DNA from: Hahella chejuensis KCTC 2396
GTDB taxonomy: Bacteria; Pseudomonadota; Gammaproteobacteria; Pseudomonadales; Oleiphilaceae
Assembly: GCF_000012985.1 (NCBI RefSeq)
Contig: NC_007645.1
Span: forward strand, 4,672,581 to 4,736,580
Direction: 5' to 3'
Length of the DNA: 64,000 nucleotides
In this document: positions 11,585 to 55,628 of the stretch, piece by piece
Layout: each line of letters opens with the position of its first letter
How positions within the stretch are numbered: the stretch's first letter is position 1
Notes under the pieces: generated by a model
The model's input: only the letters and a program-made list of their open reading frames with translations
Database searches by the model: none
What the model was told of the DNA's origin: nothing
Translations under genes and position numbers: made by a program

Positions 11585-13509
11585 ATCGAGTAGGAGGGGG
11601 AGTTACCTCCCCCGTCCTCTCACACCACCGGGCATACGGTTCCGTACCACGGCGGTTCATGATTGGCGCTGAAGCCGGTTCATCGTATCCAGCAAGCTTA
11701 CCAGAGACAGGCGGTCGAACATCCTCTTGGGAAGCGCCGCGTTCATATGGGACGCGCCACTATTCCACCAAGGTCCCCGACCATTGCTTGCGCTACTCCA
11801 AGCCCTCTGCTCGGACAGTCCTAGTCGCATTAGATTACGGGCTCGGGTGTAAGTCCGTTTCCACTGTCGCCAGAGCAACAGGCGCAACCGCCGTCGCACC
11901 CAGCCATCGAGTCCTTCCACTGGGCGCTTCGAGGTCGTCAGGCGATAGTAGTTCGCCCAGCCCCGGAGTGCCGGATTCAGTCGCGCAATGGTGGTCTGCA
12001 GCGGTCGCCCTCGTGATTGTCTGAGCAACTGACGCAGTTTGGCCTGGTAGCGCTTCAGGCTCTTCGGCGCGATCCTCAGCCGTACCTGCTTGCGCCAGCT
12101 CACGCTGTAACCCAGATAGCTCCGGCGCCATGGTCGATCCACAGCACTTTTCTCCGCGTTCACTTTCAGGCGAAGGTGCATTTTCAGGTAATGGGTAATG
12201 CTAGTCATGACCCGGTGACCGGCCCGCTCGCTTCGGACGTAGATATTGCAGTCGTCCGCGTAGCGGCAGAACCGGTGGCCCCGGCGCTCCAGCTCCCGGT
12301 CCAGTTCGGTCAGGAGCACATTAGAGAGCAGAGGTGACAGGGGGCCGCCTTGCGGCGCGCCTTCCCGCCTTGGGCTGACCAGCCCACCGTCCAGCATACC
12401 GGCTTGCAGGTATCGGCGGATCAGGGTGAGCATCCGTCGGTCGGCGATGCGGCGGGCCAGCAGGCCCATCAGCACATCGTGGTTGACCCGGTCAAAGAAC
12501 TGCTCCAGATCCAGATCGACCACCCAGCGGTGACCGTCGTTGATGTGCCGTTGCATCGCCCTAACCGCCTGATGGGCGCTTCGCCCGGGGCGGAACCCGT
12601 AACTGTGGTCCGAGAAGATCGGCTCCAGCATCGGGCTCAGCACTTGGTGCAGGGCTTGTTGGATCAGGCGATCCTGTACCGTTGGGATGCCCAGTATCCG
12701 TTCTCCGCCTTGCGGTTTGGGGATACTGACCCGGCGTACTGGTTGAGGATGGTAGTCTCCGGCCAACAGCCGCTCTCGCAGCGTTGGCCAATGCTGTTGC
12801 AGGTGGCCTTTCAGGGCCGCCACCGGCATCTGATCGACACCGGCGGCGCCCTTGTTGGACATCACCCGCTGATACGCATGCATCAGGTTCGGGCGCTCAA
12901 GCACCTGTTCCATCAGCGTATTCGGCTCCGCGTTCGTCCACGAGTGAGCCCCCGTGTCTGCCTCAACACGGGCTTCAGTCTCTGCCGGATACCGTCCGAC
13001 GTCTCCCTGAATACCCTGACCCATCCGGATCGCTTCTGTCTTCATAAGCACATCACGAGAACTCACCGCCTACTGGCGGTCAACCATGTTCAGTCCTTCA
13101 GTACGCGGTAACGCACCTACTATGACCTCGGCTGAGTTCTGGCGCTCCATCCCCACCCCTCACGAGGTGAGTAGCACAACGGCAGAGAACCAGACTTCCC
13201 AGGGTAAGACGCGTGACCTTCACACTTATGCCCGCCGCATCTACGTCCACACCTTCCGTGCAAGTACGGGCTTTGACGGTATTTGCCGCCTTACCCAGTG
13301 TGGCCGCCTCGTATGCGATTCCTGTTCGTCAGGCCAGTGCTTTGCCTACGGCTTCCTTCAGATTCCACCTCACGATGGACACCCTTGCCGTTCGGCTAGT
13401 GGTTCCCCTTGCCGGGCCCACAGGGGACTTGCACCCCCAAGTCATCCGGCCAGCACCACCTGAACCGGAACAGCGCCCGTCAAGGCACTACGCGCCATGC
13501 CTGGCGCAC
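11585..13509 (-). mobile_element. Group IIC intron with maturase
   Basis: The intron begins GTGCGCC at 13509 on the minus strand and ends CCTACTCGAT at 11585, giving 1,925 bases. The 3' end carries a domain V hairpin (about 11625-11660) with a CGC-type catalytic triad and a domain VI with a CCTCCTACTC end, as in IIC introns. The maturase ORF lies in domain IV. The element sits 3' of a terminator hairpin and its T-run, the preferred target of IIC introns. Boundaries come from conserved ends and could be off by a base or two. Confidence 0.85.
11657..13066 (-). CDS. ltrA: Group II intron reverse transcriptase/maturase
   Basis: The 469-residue protein has a complete reverse transcriptase domain: [50 protein letters not shown] and the catalytic FCRYADD (YADD at about 269-272). 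The maturase domain X follows ([10 protein letters not shown] and [18 protein letters not shown]), then the IIC-typical [16 protein letters not shown] tail. It aids intron splicing and target-primed reverse transcription and lacks an endonuclease domain, as IIC proteins do. No frameshift is visible, so it may be active. The likely start is the ATG at 13066 or one a few codons later. Confidence 0.95.
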
Positions 13510-36795: not shown

Positions 36796-37656
36796 TCAAG
36801 CGGCGACTGAAACTTCGTATGATGTAAATTTGCGAACGTTAATGCAGCCAGTATCCAAAATCAGATACTGTCCTTTGATACCAAGTAATGTACCACTAAC
36901 TTCCGGCTCTTTTTCCGGGTTTAGACTAACCACCTTCTGCGGATACTGCATCACCGGGAAAGCGATGTCGACCACATCCGCAGAGGTTAAAATTTCCATA
37001 CTATCCGCGCCTTCTGCACGTCGTAAGCCTTCAAGCGAACTTTCCAGCTCCGCCAGTAAACGATCTCTTTCCGCAATCATATCCAATGGCTCAGGATCGC
37101 CCTTGAGCATCGCGCGCCAGTTAGTTCTATCCGTCACCGACTGGCGAAACACCTCCTCCACCAAGCCTGACATTCGTCGCGTGGTGACTTCCATGATGGG
37201 GAGAGCCTGTGTTGCGCCCTGATCAATCCAGCGCGTAGGTATTTGAGTTTTACGAGTGATGCCGACTTTCACTCCTGATGAGTTGGCCAGATACACCACA
37301 TGGGGAACCATACAGTGGGTTTCCCCCCACTCAGGCTCCCGACAGGTGCCGGCGAAAAAGTGGCATTTTTCCGGACTCATAATGCAGCTGTCGCAACGCG
37401 CCAGTTTTTTGAAGCAGGGAAAACAGAACCCCTGACTGAAGCTCTTTTTCGTCGAGCGGCCGCAATGATTGCAGACAATCTTACCGCTGAATTTAATCTG
37501 AAGTGATTTGCCGAGCAGAGGATTCAACTCCACCCGTTCATCGCCAACCACCAGACTGTAGTTGACGGGGTTATCGAGCTGGCTGAACATTTTCTCCAGA
37601 CAGCCTTGAGCTACTTCCCTCAAGTGAGTCCCCTTGGTTCTAAATTCATCTCTCAA
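36796..37656 (-). CDS. DUF2797 domain protein
   Basis: The 286-residue protein has a cysteine-rich part (CNHCGRSTKKSFSQGFCFPC, then CDSC and CHFFAGTCREPEWGE) that would bind zinc, followed by HVVYLANSSGVKVGITRKTQ and PTRWIDQGATQALPI. The second part resembles a GIY-YIG nuclease-like core in the DUF2797 family. Function is unknown. It is upstream of pepN and downstream of the YeaC-like gene, all on the minus strand, the order seen in related gammaproteobacteria. Confidence 0.88.
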   Translation of the reverse strand: MRDEFRTKGTHLREVAQGCLEKMFSQLDNPVNYSLVVGDERVELNPLLGKSLQIKFSGKIVCNHCGRSTKKSFSQGFCFPCFKKLARCDSCIMSPEKCHFFAGTCREPEWGETHCMVPHVVYLANSSGVKVGITRKTQIPTRWIDQGATQALPIMEVTTRRMSGLVEEVFRQSVTDRTNWRAMLKGDPEPLDMIAERDRLLAELESSLEGLRRAEGADSMEILTSADVVDIAFPVMQYPQKVVSLNPEKEPEVSGTLLGIKGQYLILDTGCINVRKFTSYEVSVAA

Positions 37657-37709
37657 TTATTGTTATTGTCGAAACGCGCGCTCCCGTCACGACGGAGGCG
37701 AAGCTTCAA

Positions 37710-37994
37710 TCAATGCTTGACGACGCCGCTTTCCGGCGCCCATACGCCAGAAGAAGATTCAGCCGCGGCCGCTTTCAAGGCGCAAGGCGTCGGCCGGTCT
37801 CTTTCTATATACCCCACCCGTTGCTCTTCAGGCACATTATGGGAAATTTCGTAGGTGATGAGCGCCTCCATGCAGAGCTCTTTCTGTTCCATTGATAACT
37901 TTTTGCCGTCCGGCCACTTGCCCAACTCCAAGGCTGTCTTCATCGCCTCATAGATCTCCGGAGTCAGGTTTTTTACTGCATTTTCAAAGGACAT
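37710..37994 (-). CDS. YeaC-like DUF1315 protein
   Basis: From the ATG at 37994 the protein is MSFENAVKNLTPEIYEAMKT, then ALELGKWPDGKKLSMEQKEL and HNVPEEQRVGYIERDRP, the DUF1315/YeaC pattern, for 94 residues. A longer frame begins six codons upstream. Function is unknown. A Fur-box promoter lies about 90 bases upstream but points the other way. Confidence 0.9.
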   Translation of the reverse strand: MSFENAVKNLTPEIYEAMKTALELGKWPDGKKLSMEQKELCMEALITYEISHNVPEEQRVGYIERDRPTPCALKAAAAESSSGVWAPESGVVKH

Positions 37995-38072
37995 AAGGGG
38001 TCTCCAGCACAATGTTGCGGACTATAACATAAGGGCGATCCGACATTTCAATAAAATTCTGGTGAAAAAGTG

Positions 38073-38102
38073 TTGACTTACAAATGATAATCATTATCAT
38101 TT
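38073..38102 (+). promoter_or_regulatory. Fur-box promoter
   Basis: A 21-base palindrome AAATGATAAT-C-ATTATCATTT (38082-38102) closely matches the Fur consensus GATAATGATAATCATTATC. On the plus strand TTGACT (38073-38078) and TATCAT (38095-38100) with a 16-base spacer make a sigma-70 promoter that the palindrome covers. Fur with iron would block it. No coding gene starts downstream on the plus strand. Confidence 0.8.
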
Positions 38103-38106
38103 GCAT

Positions 38107-38244
38107 TGTGTGTTTGATCCCACACAGCTCTCATCAGAGTATTCACAGCTACTTGGGGGATGCGCATCAACGGAGGCTGGCTAAACCAGCTCTGCAACTT
38201 GGTTTAACCGTTATACTCCGTTGATGCCTTCCCCATCTTTTTTT
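38107..38244 (+). ncRNA. Candidate Fur-regulated small RNA
   Basis: A transcript from the Fur-box promoter would start near 38107 and end after the terminator T-run at 38238-38244, about 138 bases. No ORF with a start and ribosome binding site lies in it. Inside are a GCTGG/CCAGC stem (38176-38190) and a long closing stem. This layout is that of iron-stress sRNAs such as RyhB and PrrF, which repress iron-using proteins. I could not match its sequence to those. Its last ~34 bases are antisense to the 3' end of the rhomboid gene. Confidence 0.65.
38156..38244 (+). terminator. Rho-independent terminator of candidate sRNA
   Basis: GCATCAACGGAG (38164-38175) pairs perfectly with CTCCGTTGATGC (38216-38227). 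A further GGGGA/TTCCCC step extends the stem and TTTTTTT follows at 38238-38244. The loop contains a smaller hairpin. The T-run is only on the plus strand, so the terminator serves rightward transcription, although the stem also follows the rhomboid stop on the other strand. Confidence 0.75.
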
Positions 38245-39101
38245 CCACTTGTTTTTAGCCACAACGCCATTGACGTCAAGCCAAACCAAAAGCCGACGAA
38301 GTGCGCGGTATTGGCGAACGAAACGCCAAATTGATCAGAGACGCCCAGCATACCCGCCAACATCCACACAATACTGAAAATCACCATCGCGGAAGGCGCC
38401 CACATCCGCATACTCGGCGCTAACGCCCACCCCGCCGCGTGCGCGCCAACCAAGGCATAGGCGACGCCGGAAAAGCCGCCAAACGCCGGCCCCGCCACCA
38501 AATACTGAGCGAAGTTGCTCACTACAGCCGCCCCCAGAATAAACGAAACGAATCCGCCACGACTGAACAAGACCTCCAAGGTCCGGCCAAATATCCACAA
38601 CGCAAGGGAGTTAAACAGCCAGTGCGCCAGCCCCAAGTGCAACCATGCGGGAGACAGCAAACGCCACCACTCTCCTTTTTGCAACGTAAACAGCAAGGAC
38701 TGAACGCGAGAAGACAGGTCCCCGGAAGGCAGCTGAACACGATCAATGATGAAGAAATAACGACTGCTCTGGAAATCGCCAAAGCCAGTGTACAAGGCCG
38801 CCACCAGTATCGTCAGCAACAACCAGGCGATGCAGGGAAAAGGCTTTAACTGCATCGCCAGACTGGAACCCTTGGGGCGTGGTTGCGCGCTTACAACCTC
38901 TCCCAACCGCTCACGAACGCCAGGGTCTTCTTTGAAACGTTGATAGCAATCCAACACAACAGGCTTGGCGGCGGGATCTTTAACCCATATTTCCTGCCGC
39001 CCTTCATTCTCGGTGACCCATATCGCAACGCCCCTGCTGCGCAGATAGCGATACAGCGACTCAATATCTTCTTCGATTGGGATATCGCAAACTTTTTCCA
39101 T
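38211..39101 (-). CDS. Rhomboid-family intramembrane serine protease (GlpG-like)
   Basis: Read from ATG at 39101 (MEKVCDIPIEEDIESLYRYL) the protein has 296 residues. An N-terminal cytoplasmic domain is followed by six hydrophobic segments. The WLHLGLAHWLFNSLALWIFG region, the catalytic Ser in GFSGVAYALVG and the His in NTAHFVGFWFG make a GlpG-type active site. It cleaves membrane proteins within the bilayer. The gene follows the phosphatase gene after four bases, likely in the same transcript as nadK. Confidence 0.92.
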   Translation of the reverse strand: MEKVCDIPIEEDIESLYRYLRSRGVAIWVTENEGRQEIWVKDPAAKPVVLDCYQRFKEDPGVRERLGEVVSAQPRPKGSSLAMQLKPFPCIAWLLLTILVAALYTGFGDFQSSRYFFIIDRVQLPSGDLSSRVQSLLFTLQKGEWWRLLSPAWLHLGLAHWLFNSLALWIFGRTLEVLFSRGGFVSFILGAAVVSNFAQYLVAGPAFGGFSGVAYALVGAHAAGWALAPSMRMWAPSAMVIFSIVWMLAGMLGVSDQFGVSFANTAHFVGFWFGLTSMALWLKTSGKKDGEGINGV

Positions 39102-39105
39102 GCAC

Positions 39106-40095
39106 TTAGCGCCCGGCGGCGCCCCCTGCTTCACGCATGACATCGACCCAGACAAAGTTGTCCGCAGTCAGCTTGCGATCTCCCGCTTCGAGTCGATAGG
39201 CCACCAACTTGCCATACTTCACTGCGCTGTAATCCAGACAGGCGATATTGGGACGAATGGGACGCGGCGCGCCTTGCAGCCAGTAATGTCCAACGAACAA
39301 CGGCGGCTCTTCCAGGCCATAAAACAGCAGCATGCGCCGCTCCCGCTCCGACAGACGTCTTTCCGCCACTTCGTCAGGCAGAGCGTCCGGCTGAAACACT
39401 ACGTCGCCGTAGGTTTCAGGCTCCGCCTTCCAGAATTTGGTGCGGAATGCGGTGCGCACGAAGCCGTCGCTGCTGCGAATAGACATACCATCCGGGAGTT
39501 TCATATCCGTGCCGCGCAACAACCGGTCCATCACATGGCCGGCAAAACTGTCGCGCACGGTGGAGGCATGTAGAAAGTCTTCCGTAATAAGGCCATCGGG
39601 GTGATGCTCCAGAAACTGGGAAATCAATTCATGATCCCAGCAGGCGTGCACAACGCGGAAACTCTGGTCGTCAATCAGCAACGGCAGCGTCATGAACCAC
39701 TCAAGAAACTCGTTCCATTCATGGCCATAATTGGCGAACTGATCCAGCGTTTCCCGAATCAAACGCTCATGACGGGGCGTATGCTCACGCAAATAGGTAT
39801 GAGCGCTGCCCGGACGCGCCCGGGTGCAATAGCCCAGGGCGTTGTACTCATGATTCCCCATGACAATGCGCGCGCCGCCATGCTCCACCATATCCCGCAC
39901 AATATGTAGCGCTTCGCGGATGCGTGGACCTCGGTCGACAATATCGCCCACGTAAATCGCCTGACGATGCTTATGCGTGTATACGCCGTTAATCTTCCGG
40001 TAGTCGAGCTTCTCCAGCAATGCCTCCAGCGTTTTGGCGCATCCATGGACGTCGCCGATGAAGTCAAAGCCTCGGTACTTCTGGCTCTCGGACAT
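39106..40095 (-). CDS. Calcineurin-like metallophosphatase
   Basis: The 329-residue protein has the metallophosphatase motifs GDVHGCAKTLEALL, YVGDIVDRGPRIREAL, VMGNHEYNALGY and a later VVHACWDHE with metal-binding His. It resembles bacterial PrpE/ApaH-like serine/threonine phosphatases. The substrate is unknown. It starts 4 bases after the nadK stop and ends 4 bases before the rhomboid start, so the three genes form a tight operon. Confidence 0.9.
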   Translation of the reverse strand: MSESQKYRGFDFIGDVHGCAKTLEALLEKLDYRKINGVYTHKHRQAIYVGDIVDRGPRIREALHIVRDMVEHGGARIVMGNHEYNALGYCTRARPGSAHTYLREHTPRHERLIRETLDQFANYGHEWNEFLEWFMTLPLLIDDQSFRVVHACWDHELISQFLEHHPDGLITEDFLHASTVRDSFAGHVMDRLLRGTDMKLPDGMSIRSSDGFVRTAFRTKFWKAEPETYGDVVFQPDALPDEVAERRLSERERRMLLFYGLEEPPLFVGHYWLQGAPRPIRPNIACLDYSAVKYGKLVAYRLEAGDRKLTADNFVWVDVMREAGGAAGR

Positions 40096-48296: not shown

Positions 48297-48373
48297 TGGC
48301 GGAGCGGACGGGACTCGAACCCGCGACCCCCGGCGTGACAGGCCGGTATTCTAACCGACTGAACTACCGCTCC
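48297..48373 (-). tRNA. tRNA-Asp (anticodon GTC), copy 1
   Basis: The minus strand folds as a 77-base tRNA-Asp. GGAGCGG pairs with CCGCTCC, the anticodon arm is CCGGC-CTGTCAC-GCCGG giving GTC, the T arm has TTCGAGT, and CCA is encoded. It is identical to the copy at 48510-48586. Confidence 0.97.
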
Positions 48374-48397
48374 GCGAAAATCCATCTTTGGGGAAGA

Positions 48398-48473
48398 TGG
48401 TGGGTGGTGCAGGGATCGAACCTGCGACCCTCGCCTTGTAAGGGCGATGCTCTCCCAGCTGAGCTAACCACCC
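48398..48473 (-). tRNA. tRNA-Val (anticodon TAC), copy 1
   Basis: The 76-base tRNA begins GGGTGGTTAGCTCAGC, has anticodon arm CGCCC-TTACAAG-GGCG-like giving TAC, a T arm with GGTTCGATCC, and encoded CCA. It is identical to the copy at 48607-48682 and is transcribed just before tRNA-Asp copy 1. Confidence 0.97.
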
Positions 48474-48509
48474 AGTTCCAGATGAACTGGCTCTTGATTT
48501 AGTAGAAAT

Positions 48510-48586
48510 TGGCGGAGCGGACGGGACTCGAACCCGCGACCCCCGGCGTGACAGGCCGGTATTCTAACCGACTGAACTACCGCTCC
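48510..48586 (-). tRNA. tRNA-Asp (anticodon GTC), copy 2
   Basis: This is an identical second tRNA-Asp, 77 bases with encoded CCA, separated from tRNA-Val copy 1 by 36 bases. Confidence 0.97.
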
Positions 48587-48606
48587 GCGATCTCTATTTC
48601 AGAATT

Positions 48607-48682
48607 TGGTGGGTGGTGCAGGGATCGAACCTGCGACCCTCGCCTTGTAAGGGCGATGCTCTCCCAGCTGAGCTAACCACCC
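48607..48682 (-). tRNA. tRNA-Val (anticodon TAC), copy 2
   Basis: This is an identical second tRNA-Val, 76 bases with encoded CCA. It is the first tRNA of the leftward Val-Asp-Val-Asp array. Confidence 0.97.
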
Positions 48683-55043: not shown

Positions 55044-55628
55044 ATGGCATTTGAACTTCCTGCTCTCCCTTACGAAAAGAATGCGCTTGCGCCGCACATT
55101 TCCGAAGAAACTATTGAATACCACTACGGTAAACACCACAAAACTTACGTCGATAAGTTGAACGGTCTGGTTCCCGGAACTGAATACGAAGGGAAGTCTC
55201 TGGAAGAGATTATCGTGGCTTCCAAGAGCGGCCCCGTTTTCAATAACGCCGCCCAGATCTGGAACCACACTTTCTACTGGCACTGCCTGAGCCCGAATGG
55301 CGGCGGCGAACCTACTGGCGAGCTGGCTGACGCCATCAACAAAACTTTCGGCTCCTTCGAAAGCTTCAAAACTCAATTCACTGACAAAGCCGTTAACAAC
55401 TTTGGCTCGGCTTGGACCTGGCTGGTTAAAAACGCCGACGGTTCACTGGAAATCTTCAACACCAGCAACGCAGGCACGCCAATGACTGACGGCAAAACCG
55501 CACTGCTGACCGTTGACGTTTGGGAGCACGCTTACTACATCGACTACAGAAACGTTCGTCCTAACTACATGAACGCATTCTGGAATCTGGTGAACTGGGA
55601 TTTCGTCGCCAAAAACCTGGCCGCTTAA
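55044..55628 (+). CDS. sodB: Superoxide dismutase [Fe]
   Basis: The 194-residue protein starts MAFELPALPYEKNALAPHIS. The metal ligands are His27 (EYHYGKHH), His in IWNHTFYWHC, and Asp and His in VDVWEHAYYIDYRN. AAQIWNHTFYWHC with Gln before the second ligand region marks the Fe type. It removes superoxide in the cytoplasm. In many bacteria sodB mRNA is a target of iron-stress sRNAs, which makes the candidate sRNA at 38107 relevant. Confidence 0.96.
   Translation: MAFELPALPYEKNALAPHISEETIEYHYGKHHKTYVDKLNGLVPGTEYEGKSLEEIIVASKSGPVFNNAAQIWNHTFYWHCLSPNGGGEPTGELADAINKTFGSFESFKTQFTDKAVNNFGSAWTWLVKNADGSLEIFNTSNAGTPMTDGKTALLTVDVWEHAYYIDYRNVRPNYMNAFWNLVNWDFVAKNLAA

Follow-up and report, generated by a model that had tools for sequence, protein, structure and literature searches.

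In the genome of Hahella chejuensis KCTC 2396, a yeaC-like gene and a rhomboid gene are separated by an intergenic region for which a preliminary description proposed an iron-regulated small RNA (sRNA), possibly of a new family, with sodB as a candidate target. The locus raises two questions: whether the region specifies a Fur-controlled sRNA, and whether such an RNA would be new or related to one already known. All coordinates given here are positions in the window, the whole 64-kb stretch of H. chejuensis DNA that was analyzed, which spans 4,672,581–4,736,580 of its contig; the features discussed are listed in Table 1.

The Fur box described over the promoter TTGACT-16-TATCAT was confirmed, and it proved to be a perfect palindrome of the 9-3-9 form proposed in PMC6922518. 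When it is read as a 19-bp site, its 3′ end (38101) lies 1 nt downstream of the end of the −10 hexamer (38100). PMC2527527 reports this same geometry, a 19-bp box ending 1 nt past the −10, at 73 of the 74 loci of Fur-regulated sRNAs. When the window was searched with an independent 19-bp Fur consensus (up to three mismatches), one site was found, namely this operator, with three mismatches on each strand, and the same search found no site in any of 100 shuffles. Scoring against the arms of the box itself, which ranks it first by construction, revealed two other positions reaching 15/18 among 463,580 in the window and 400 kb of genome sequence. On their own, the promoter hexamers are weak evidence, because the two occurrences found at 37500–38800 are near the chance expectation of 0.8. 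This near-expectation would fit a locus whose features are accidental or decayed and have no function, but the core and the Fur box are kept together over 10 genera (see below), and we find that explanation scarcely credible.

Downstream of the promoter, the non-coding unit of approximately 138 nt ends with a long stem followed by seven T, in agreement with the strong terminator that had been placed about 140 bases on. A simple terminator scanner (loop limit, 3–8) does not report this structure. The predicted RNA fold had a z-score of −5.8, and none of 200 shuffles was equally stable. A small peptide encoded within the sRNA was considered and rejected, as no reading frame was kept across 16 translated loci (by eye), in agreement with the description of the region between promoter and terminator as non-coding. 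The long stem also gave microRNA matches in Rfam, which were rejected as below cut-off and implausible for a bacterium.

Table 1. Predicted features of the yeaC–rhomboid junction, and sodB, in the 64-kb window
Feature	Position	Strand	Basis
yeaC-like gene (DUF1315), left neighbor of the sRNA	37710..37994	-	family match
σ70-type promoter TTGACT-16-TATCAT (−35, 38073–38078; −10, 38095–38100)	38073..38100	+	sequence
Fur box AAATGATAA-TCA-TTATCATTT, perfect 9-3-9 palindrome (21 bp) across the promoter	38082..38102	+	sequence, conservation
Predicted sRNA transcript	38107..38245	+	start inferred from −10, end at T run; fold, conservation
5′ stem-loop UGUGUG-UUUGAUCC-CACACA	38107..38126	+	predicted fold
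Pairing core part A, CUCUCAUCAG	38128..38137	+	alignment, pairing predictions
19-nt PrrF-like core	38130..38148	+	ungapped comparison
Pairing core part B, UAUUCACAGCU, perfect 11-nt complement of AGCUGUGAAUA at sdhC	38140..38150	+	pairing prediction
Long intrinsic terminator, stem ~38154–38235, then U7 (T38238–38244)	38154..38244	+	sequence, fold
Rhomboid gene, right neighbor, convergent with the sRNA	38211..39155	-	family match
sodB, Fe-SOD equivalog	55044..55628	+	family match

The 3′ end of the rhomboid ORF (38211) falls inside the right arm of the terminator stem (overlap, 38211–38245), and therefore the sRNA and the rhomboid mRNA would overlap in antisense. The other neighbor, yeaC, is divergent and starts approximately 87 bp from the Fur box, a distance at which the box could serve yeaC and the plus-strand unit could be a leader or an antisense tail to the rhomboid gene. 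Several observations argue against this arrangement. The box lay over a plus-strand promoter in 21 of 21 operators (by eye), the conserved part of the region is the transcript core, and yeaC possibly has its own minus-strand promoter between the Fur box and the gene start (by eye). Moreover, yeaC occurs with no Fur box within 400 nt in 12 of 19 genomes of the Hahella family and in 10 of 10 genomes outside it in the third of the locus sets described below. We regard an operator for yeaC as very improbable. Elsewhere in the H. chejuensis genome, Fur boxes resembling the sRNA operator were found upstream of other genes at two loci (L002 and L003) that carry no sRNA core. The window also contains group II intron domains (Rfam; 11657–13379) beside a reverse transcriptase-like ORF (by eye) and adjoining phage-like genes, as well as four tRNA genes (48300–48682) whose Rfam scores recur in pairs, suggesting a duplicated tRNA pair.

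Conservation in relatives was analyzed using labels for genera (g), families (f), genomes (G) and loci (L); f1 is the family of H. chejuensis, which comprises Hahella and Marinobacter-like bacteria. When 58 genomes, including that of H. chejuensis, were searched at the DNA level, 15 had matches at E≤0.001, some of which covered only a Fur box. The complete unit, consisting of the Fur-box promoter, the CUCUCAUC core and the terminator, was found at the yeaC–rhomboid junction of 32 f1 genomes, counting that of H. chejuensis, and these represent 10 of the 16 f1 genera seen; the contig of one of these (L011) stops before rhomboid. The tally combines three locus sets, with 13 genomes (own included), 12 genomes, and 7 of 29 genomes with a yeaC locus; the ratio 32/44 is not a prevalence, because the genomes of the first two sets had been chosen as matches. 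The f1 genomes in which yeaC had no Fur box nearby belonged to genera g3, g5, g8, g9, g10 and g13, with one each from g4 and g7. In a draw from the whole order, a short-form pattern was present in 16 of 18 f1 genomes, and the remaining two carried the unit with a variant box. Outside f1, the pattern occurred at 41 places in 35 of 372 genomes. The Fur box was scored at 28 of these places, among which G157 has a PrrF-type unit with a box of 18/18; G208 was rejected as such a unit, having a box score of 16 but no UCAC and no terminator, and the remaining scored places gave 9–12. The other 13 places were judged by the matched string alone. A pattern of Fur half-box plus core was also matched in Hahella sp. 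CCB-MM4, H. ganghwensis, Hahella sp. HN01 and an uncultured Oleiphilaceae (pattern match only).

Within the unit, CUCUCAUCAG was invariant in 11 aligned sequences, although the terminators and several 5′ stems differ; G059 has CUCUCAUCUA in its place. Of 21 operators (own included, by eye), 20 have a −35 element like TTGAC- or TTTACA ahead of the Fur box; the exception is g6, with TTGCGC. All nine f1 representatives that were folded were predicted to form both the 5′ hairpin and the terminator, with hairpin stems that vary from GUGUG/CACAC in Hahella to GCGUG/CACGC in g6, UUGAG/CUCAA in g7 and CCAAAU/AUUUGG in the Marinobacter-like bacteria. The fold signal was uneven, with 3, 7 and 1 of 200 shuffles folding equally well for g14, g7 and g2, respectively, and 0 of 200 for the other six. 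The retention of promoter, stems and terminator among relatives, which had been named as a check on the proposal, supports the layout of a Fur-controlled sRNA of the RyhB/PrrF type. We conclude with good confidence, from sequence comparison, that 38107–38245 specifies a Fur-repressed, trans-acting, base-pairing sRNA of PrrF type at the yeaC–rhomboid junction.

Next to be considered is whether this RNA belongs to a known family. An Rfam search at its own thresholds gave no match at the sRNA site. In a lax search (E≤10), PrrF (RF00444) was the sole sRNA-type match and extended end to end from the promoter to the U-tail, but its score of 27.2 bits is below the gathering cut-off of 90 bits, which was exceeded in none of 61 f1 genomes. 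When the Fur box was left out (38104–38250), no PrrF match remained at E≤10; without its Fur box, the Marinobacter-like L027 scored 25.6 bits for PrrF, with several other families scoring about equally. Weak PrrF matches are in themselves not evidence, because the PrrF family search at E≤1 also produced hits in three of 14 control genomes. At E≤1, RF00444 matched once in the H. chejuensis genome, at the yeaC–rhomboid junction, whereas PrrF is present in two copies in nearly all sequenced Pseudomonas species according to PMC4211561.

These scores, and the fact that the 5′ hairpin and terminator sequences differ from those of PrrF, would be expected if a Fur-regulated sRNA of separate origin at the junction had come to resemble PrrF in its core by convergence, which would make it a new family. 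In two f20 genomes, one f34 genome and one f38 genome, moreover, yeaC has no adjacent Fur box, and the PrrF genes of these genomes are not located near six neighbor genes of the junction. (We read f20 as the Pseudomonadaceae because of its PrrF scores.) However, the core CUCAUCAGAGUAUUCACAG is identical to that of f20 PrrF at 15 of 19 positions and to that of f34 at 16 of 19, without gaps, and the elements follow in the same order. As in PrrF1 and PrrF2 of Pseudomonas, a Fur box overlies the promoter and a CUCAUCAG-N5-UCAC core stands directly ahead of the terminator. The lengths are also similar (~110–140 nt; PMC2851614 gives 114–116 nt for PrrF), while the distance from the Fur box to the core is 24–43 nt in 21 f1 operators versus ~67 nt in f20 PrrF (by eye). 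PrrF scores, furthermore, descend stepwise over the lineages, from 140–159 bits in f20 to 54–68 in f34 and f38, 44.7 in the Marinobacter-like L027 and 27.2 in Hahella. Together with a predicted sdhC start site in common with f20 PrrF (see below), these observations make convergence unlikely in our view.

A model built from 11 f1 sequences only, R1, was used in the reverse direction. In a search of the order at E≤0.01, it matched 13 of 293 genomes, H. chejuensis among them. The other genomes gave 15 matches, each of which has CUCAUCAG or CUCAUCAA; the three f20 loci that were tested among these are PrrF above the Rfam cut-off. On the PrrF genes of f20, f34 and f38, the main R1 matches scored 38.0–48.2 bits and further copies in the same loci 27–36 bits, while two f1 units scored 25.9 and 33.8 bits. 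Seven control loci with a Fur box but without the core reached at most 32.9 bits, so that R1 alone fails to separate the classes, some PrrF-type units (~26–36 bits) overlapping coreless loci. As a whole, this information indicates that the Hahella sRNA most probably shares its descent with PrrF, in diverged form, rather than being the wholly new family that had been suggested, and that it is probably PrrF-like in its working and likely descent, yet outside the Rfam definition of PrrF. Tandem arrangements were seen among the PrrF-like loci: L040 (G093) and L051 (G151) have two units each, and L047 (G309, f38) has an unusually long array of five units at 373–1663, each scoring 57–66 bits with the PrrF model.

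Potential targets were examined by predicting duplexes between a 26-nt core of the sRNA and 390 gene starts (background mean, −12.3 kcal/mol; sd, 3.5). The starts, those of sdhC and sodB among them, were called with a simple procedure of our own in the window and in 20 stretches of 20 kb each at even spacing. The 26-nt query replaced an earlier duplex scan that included terminator bases and gave long, loose duplexes. Although sodB does lie in the window as stated, it is not favored as a target: its leader pairs at −9.8 kcal/mol, and 300 of the 390 starts pair as strongly. A better fit was obtained for the succinate dehydrogenase gene sdhC, which has the longest perfect Watson–Crick complement among the 390 starts, the 11 nt of AGCUGUGAAUA around a probable GTG start; with G-U pairs allowed, one other start exceeds it, with 12 nt. 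The duplex energy, −16.4 kcal/mol, was reached by 51 of 390 starts, and by 3 of 390 (sdhC itself included) when the cost of opening was added. The GTG, picked by resemblance to other SdhC proteins, is presumably the true start; should sdhC begin instead 24 nt upstream, where there is an in-frame ATG, the pairing near that start would be ordinary (250/390).

The sdhC site is kept in six of seven Hahella genomes; it is partly fixed by coding. In the seventh, G002, the core is changed and the sdhC leader is predicted to pair elsewhere at −21.9 kcal/mol, or at −18.2 kcal/mol in a shorter window (18/390 as strong). For the PrrF RNAs of three f20 genomes, pairing is likewise predicted at this start of sdhC, with energies of −23.6, −23.6 and −18.8 kcal/mol. 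At position −1 of sdhC (by eye), the pair is C-G in f20 and U-A in Hahella, and it is broken in f34. Among 13 representatives, each sRNA paired more strongly with its own sdhC than with swapped ones (permutation p, 0.019), while own pairing was ordinary in the representatives of g7, g4 (118 and 117 of 390) and g2 (84). PMC8534726 names sdhC as an experimentally validated target of PrrF, and PMC2851614 lists sdhCDAB, acnA and acnB as affected by it. In Pseudomonas, PrrF complementarity overlaps the Shine–Dalgarno (SD) sequence and start of brnD (PMC13104616), the same mode of pairing as proposed here for the Hahella sRNA. These predictions point, with moderate support, to sdhC as the best-supported target.

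Further candidates came from a scan for exact complements of CTGATGAGA, which found 47 sites (one being the sRNA itself) versus 22 for the reversed pattern. Approximately four lie at plausible starts, those of genes for a cytochrome c, PhoX, a WYL-like regulator and a phage-like protein (the last two by eye); cytochrome c and PhoX are post hoc choices, because they were selected from the 47 scan sites. The cytochrome c leader (PF00034) pairs over 10 nt across the ATG plus GAAUA at −21.6 kcal/mol (2/390 starts as strong). Across the seven Hahella genomes the energies range from −16.8 to −21.6 kcal/mol (2–43/390), and in G001 the opening cost cancels the advantage (103/390). PhoX (PF05787), a protein that contains iron, and bacterioferritin (TIGR00754) each pair at −24.2 kcal/mol (1/390); for bacterioferritin the strong pairing occurs in four of seven Hahella genomes and is absent in three. 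These three mRNAs, picked afterwards, all encode iron proteins and are possible additional targets through CUCUCAUCAG. Starts of other ferritins and of Dps were also considered and set aside, as their pairing in the H. chejuensis genome was not notable. In a different genome (L193, G006), the leader AAACTCTGAGGAG of rubrerythrin (PF02915), an iron protein, complements the sRNA core at −18.8 kcal/mol.

Based on these predictions, the sRNA would operate as follows. When iron is present, Fe-Fur on the promoter would block its synthesis, and when iron is short the sRNA would be made. The 5′ hairpin would protect it, and the U-tailed terminator would end it and probably recruit Hfq. The core CUCUCAUCAG-AG-UAUUCACAG would then pair with translation start regions of iron-protein mRNAs and block them, with UAUUCACAGCU covering the probable GTG start of sdhC in the sdhCDAB operon. 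RyhB (RF00057) of enterobacteria and vibrios, which is Fur-repressed, spares iron and has sdh among its targets, shares this logic, and had no Rfam match in 38050–38270 at E≤10. The proposal is also paralleled by NrrF of Neisseria, which is controlled by Fur and represses sdhCDAB (PMC5586341); the lax Rfam search of 38050–38270, to which this comparison is limited, gave no NrrF match. ArrF of Azotobacter is a further related case, being an iron-repressed PrrF homologue by its published description (PMC2851614). Among the matches listed in a literature search, none dealt with this RNA in Hahella or Marinobacter. A further 26 Fur-type sRNA loci were predicted in PMC2527527, and the Hahella sRNA may already be among them.

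Iron is a growth-limiting nutrient in large parts of the ocean. If our reading is correct, the locus would provide a likely iron-sparing sRNA for the Hahella/Marinobacter-like family, in which none of the 61 genomes reaches the PrrF cut-off, and PrrF would extend, in diverged form, well past the pseudomonads. The case would also offer a natural experiment on what is essential to an sRNA, namely a short core and a single target site. A broader view, which we put forward tentatively and which may well prove wrong, is that PrrF is one instance of an order-wide iron-sparing RNA that keeps a two-part core of ~19 nt and the sdhC start site, with compensatory changes in RNA and mRNA, while the 5′ domain and terminator have been replaced, as have the location and the copy number, which ranges from one to five in tandem; in Hahella, the regulon would include PhoX and cytochrome c, linking phosphate scavenging to iron supply.
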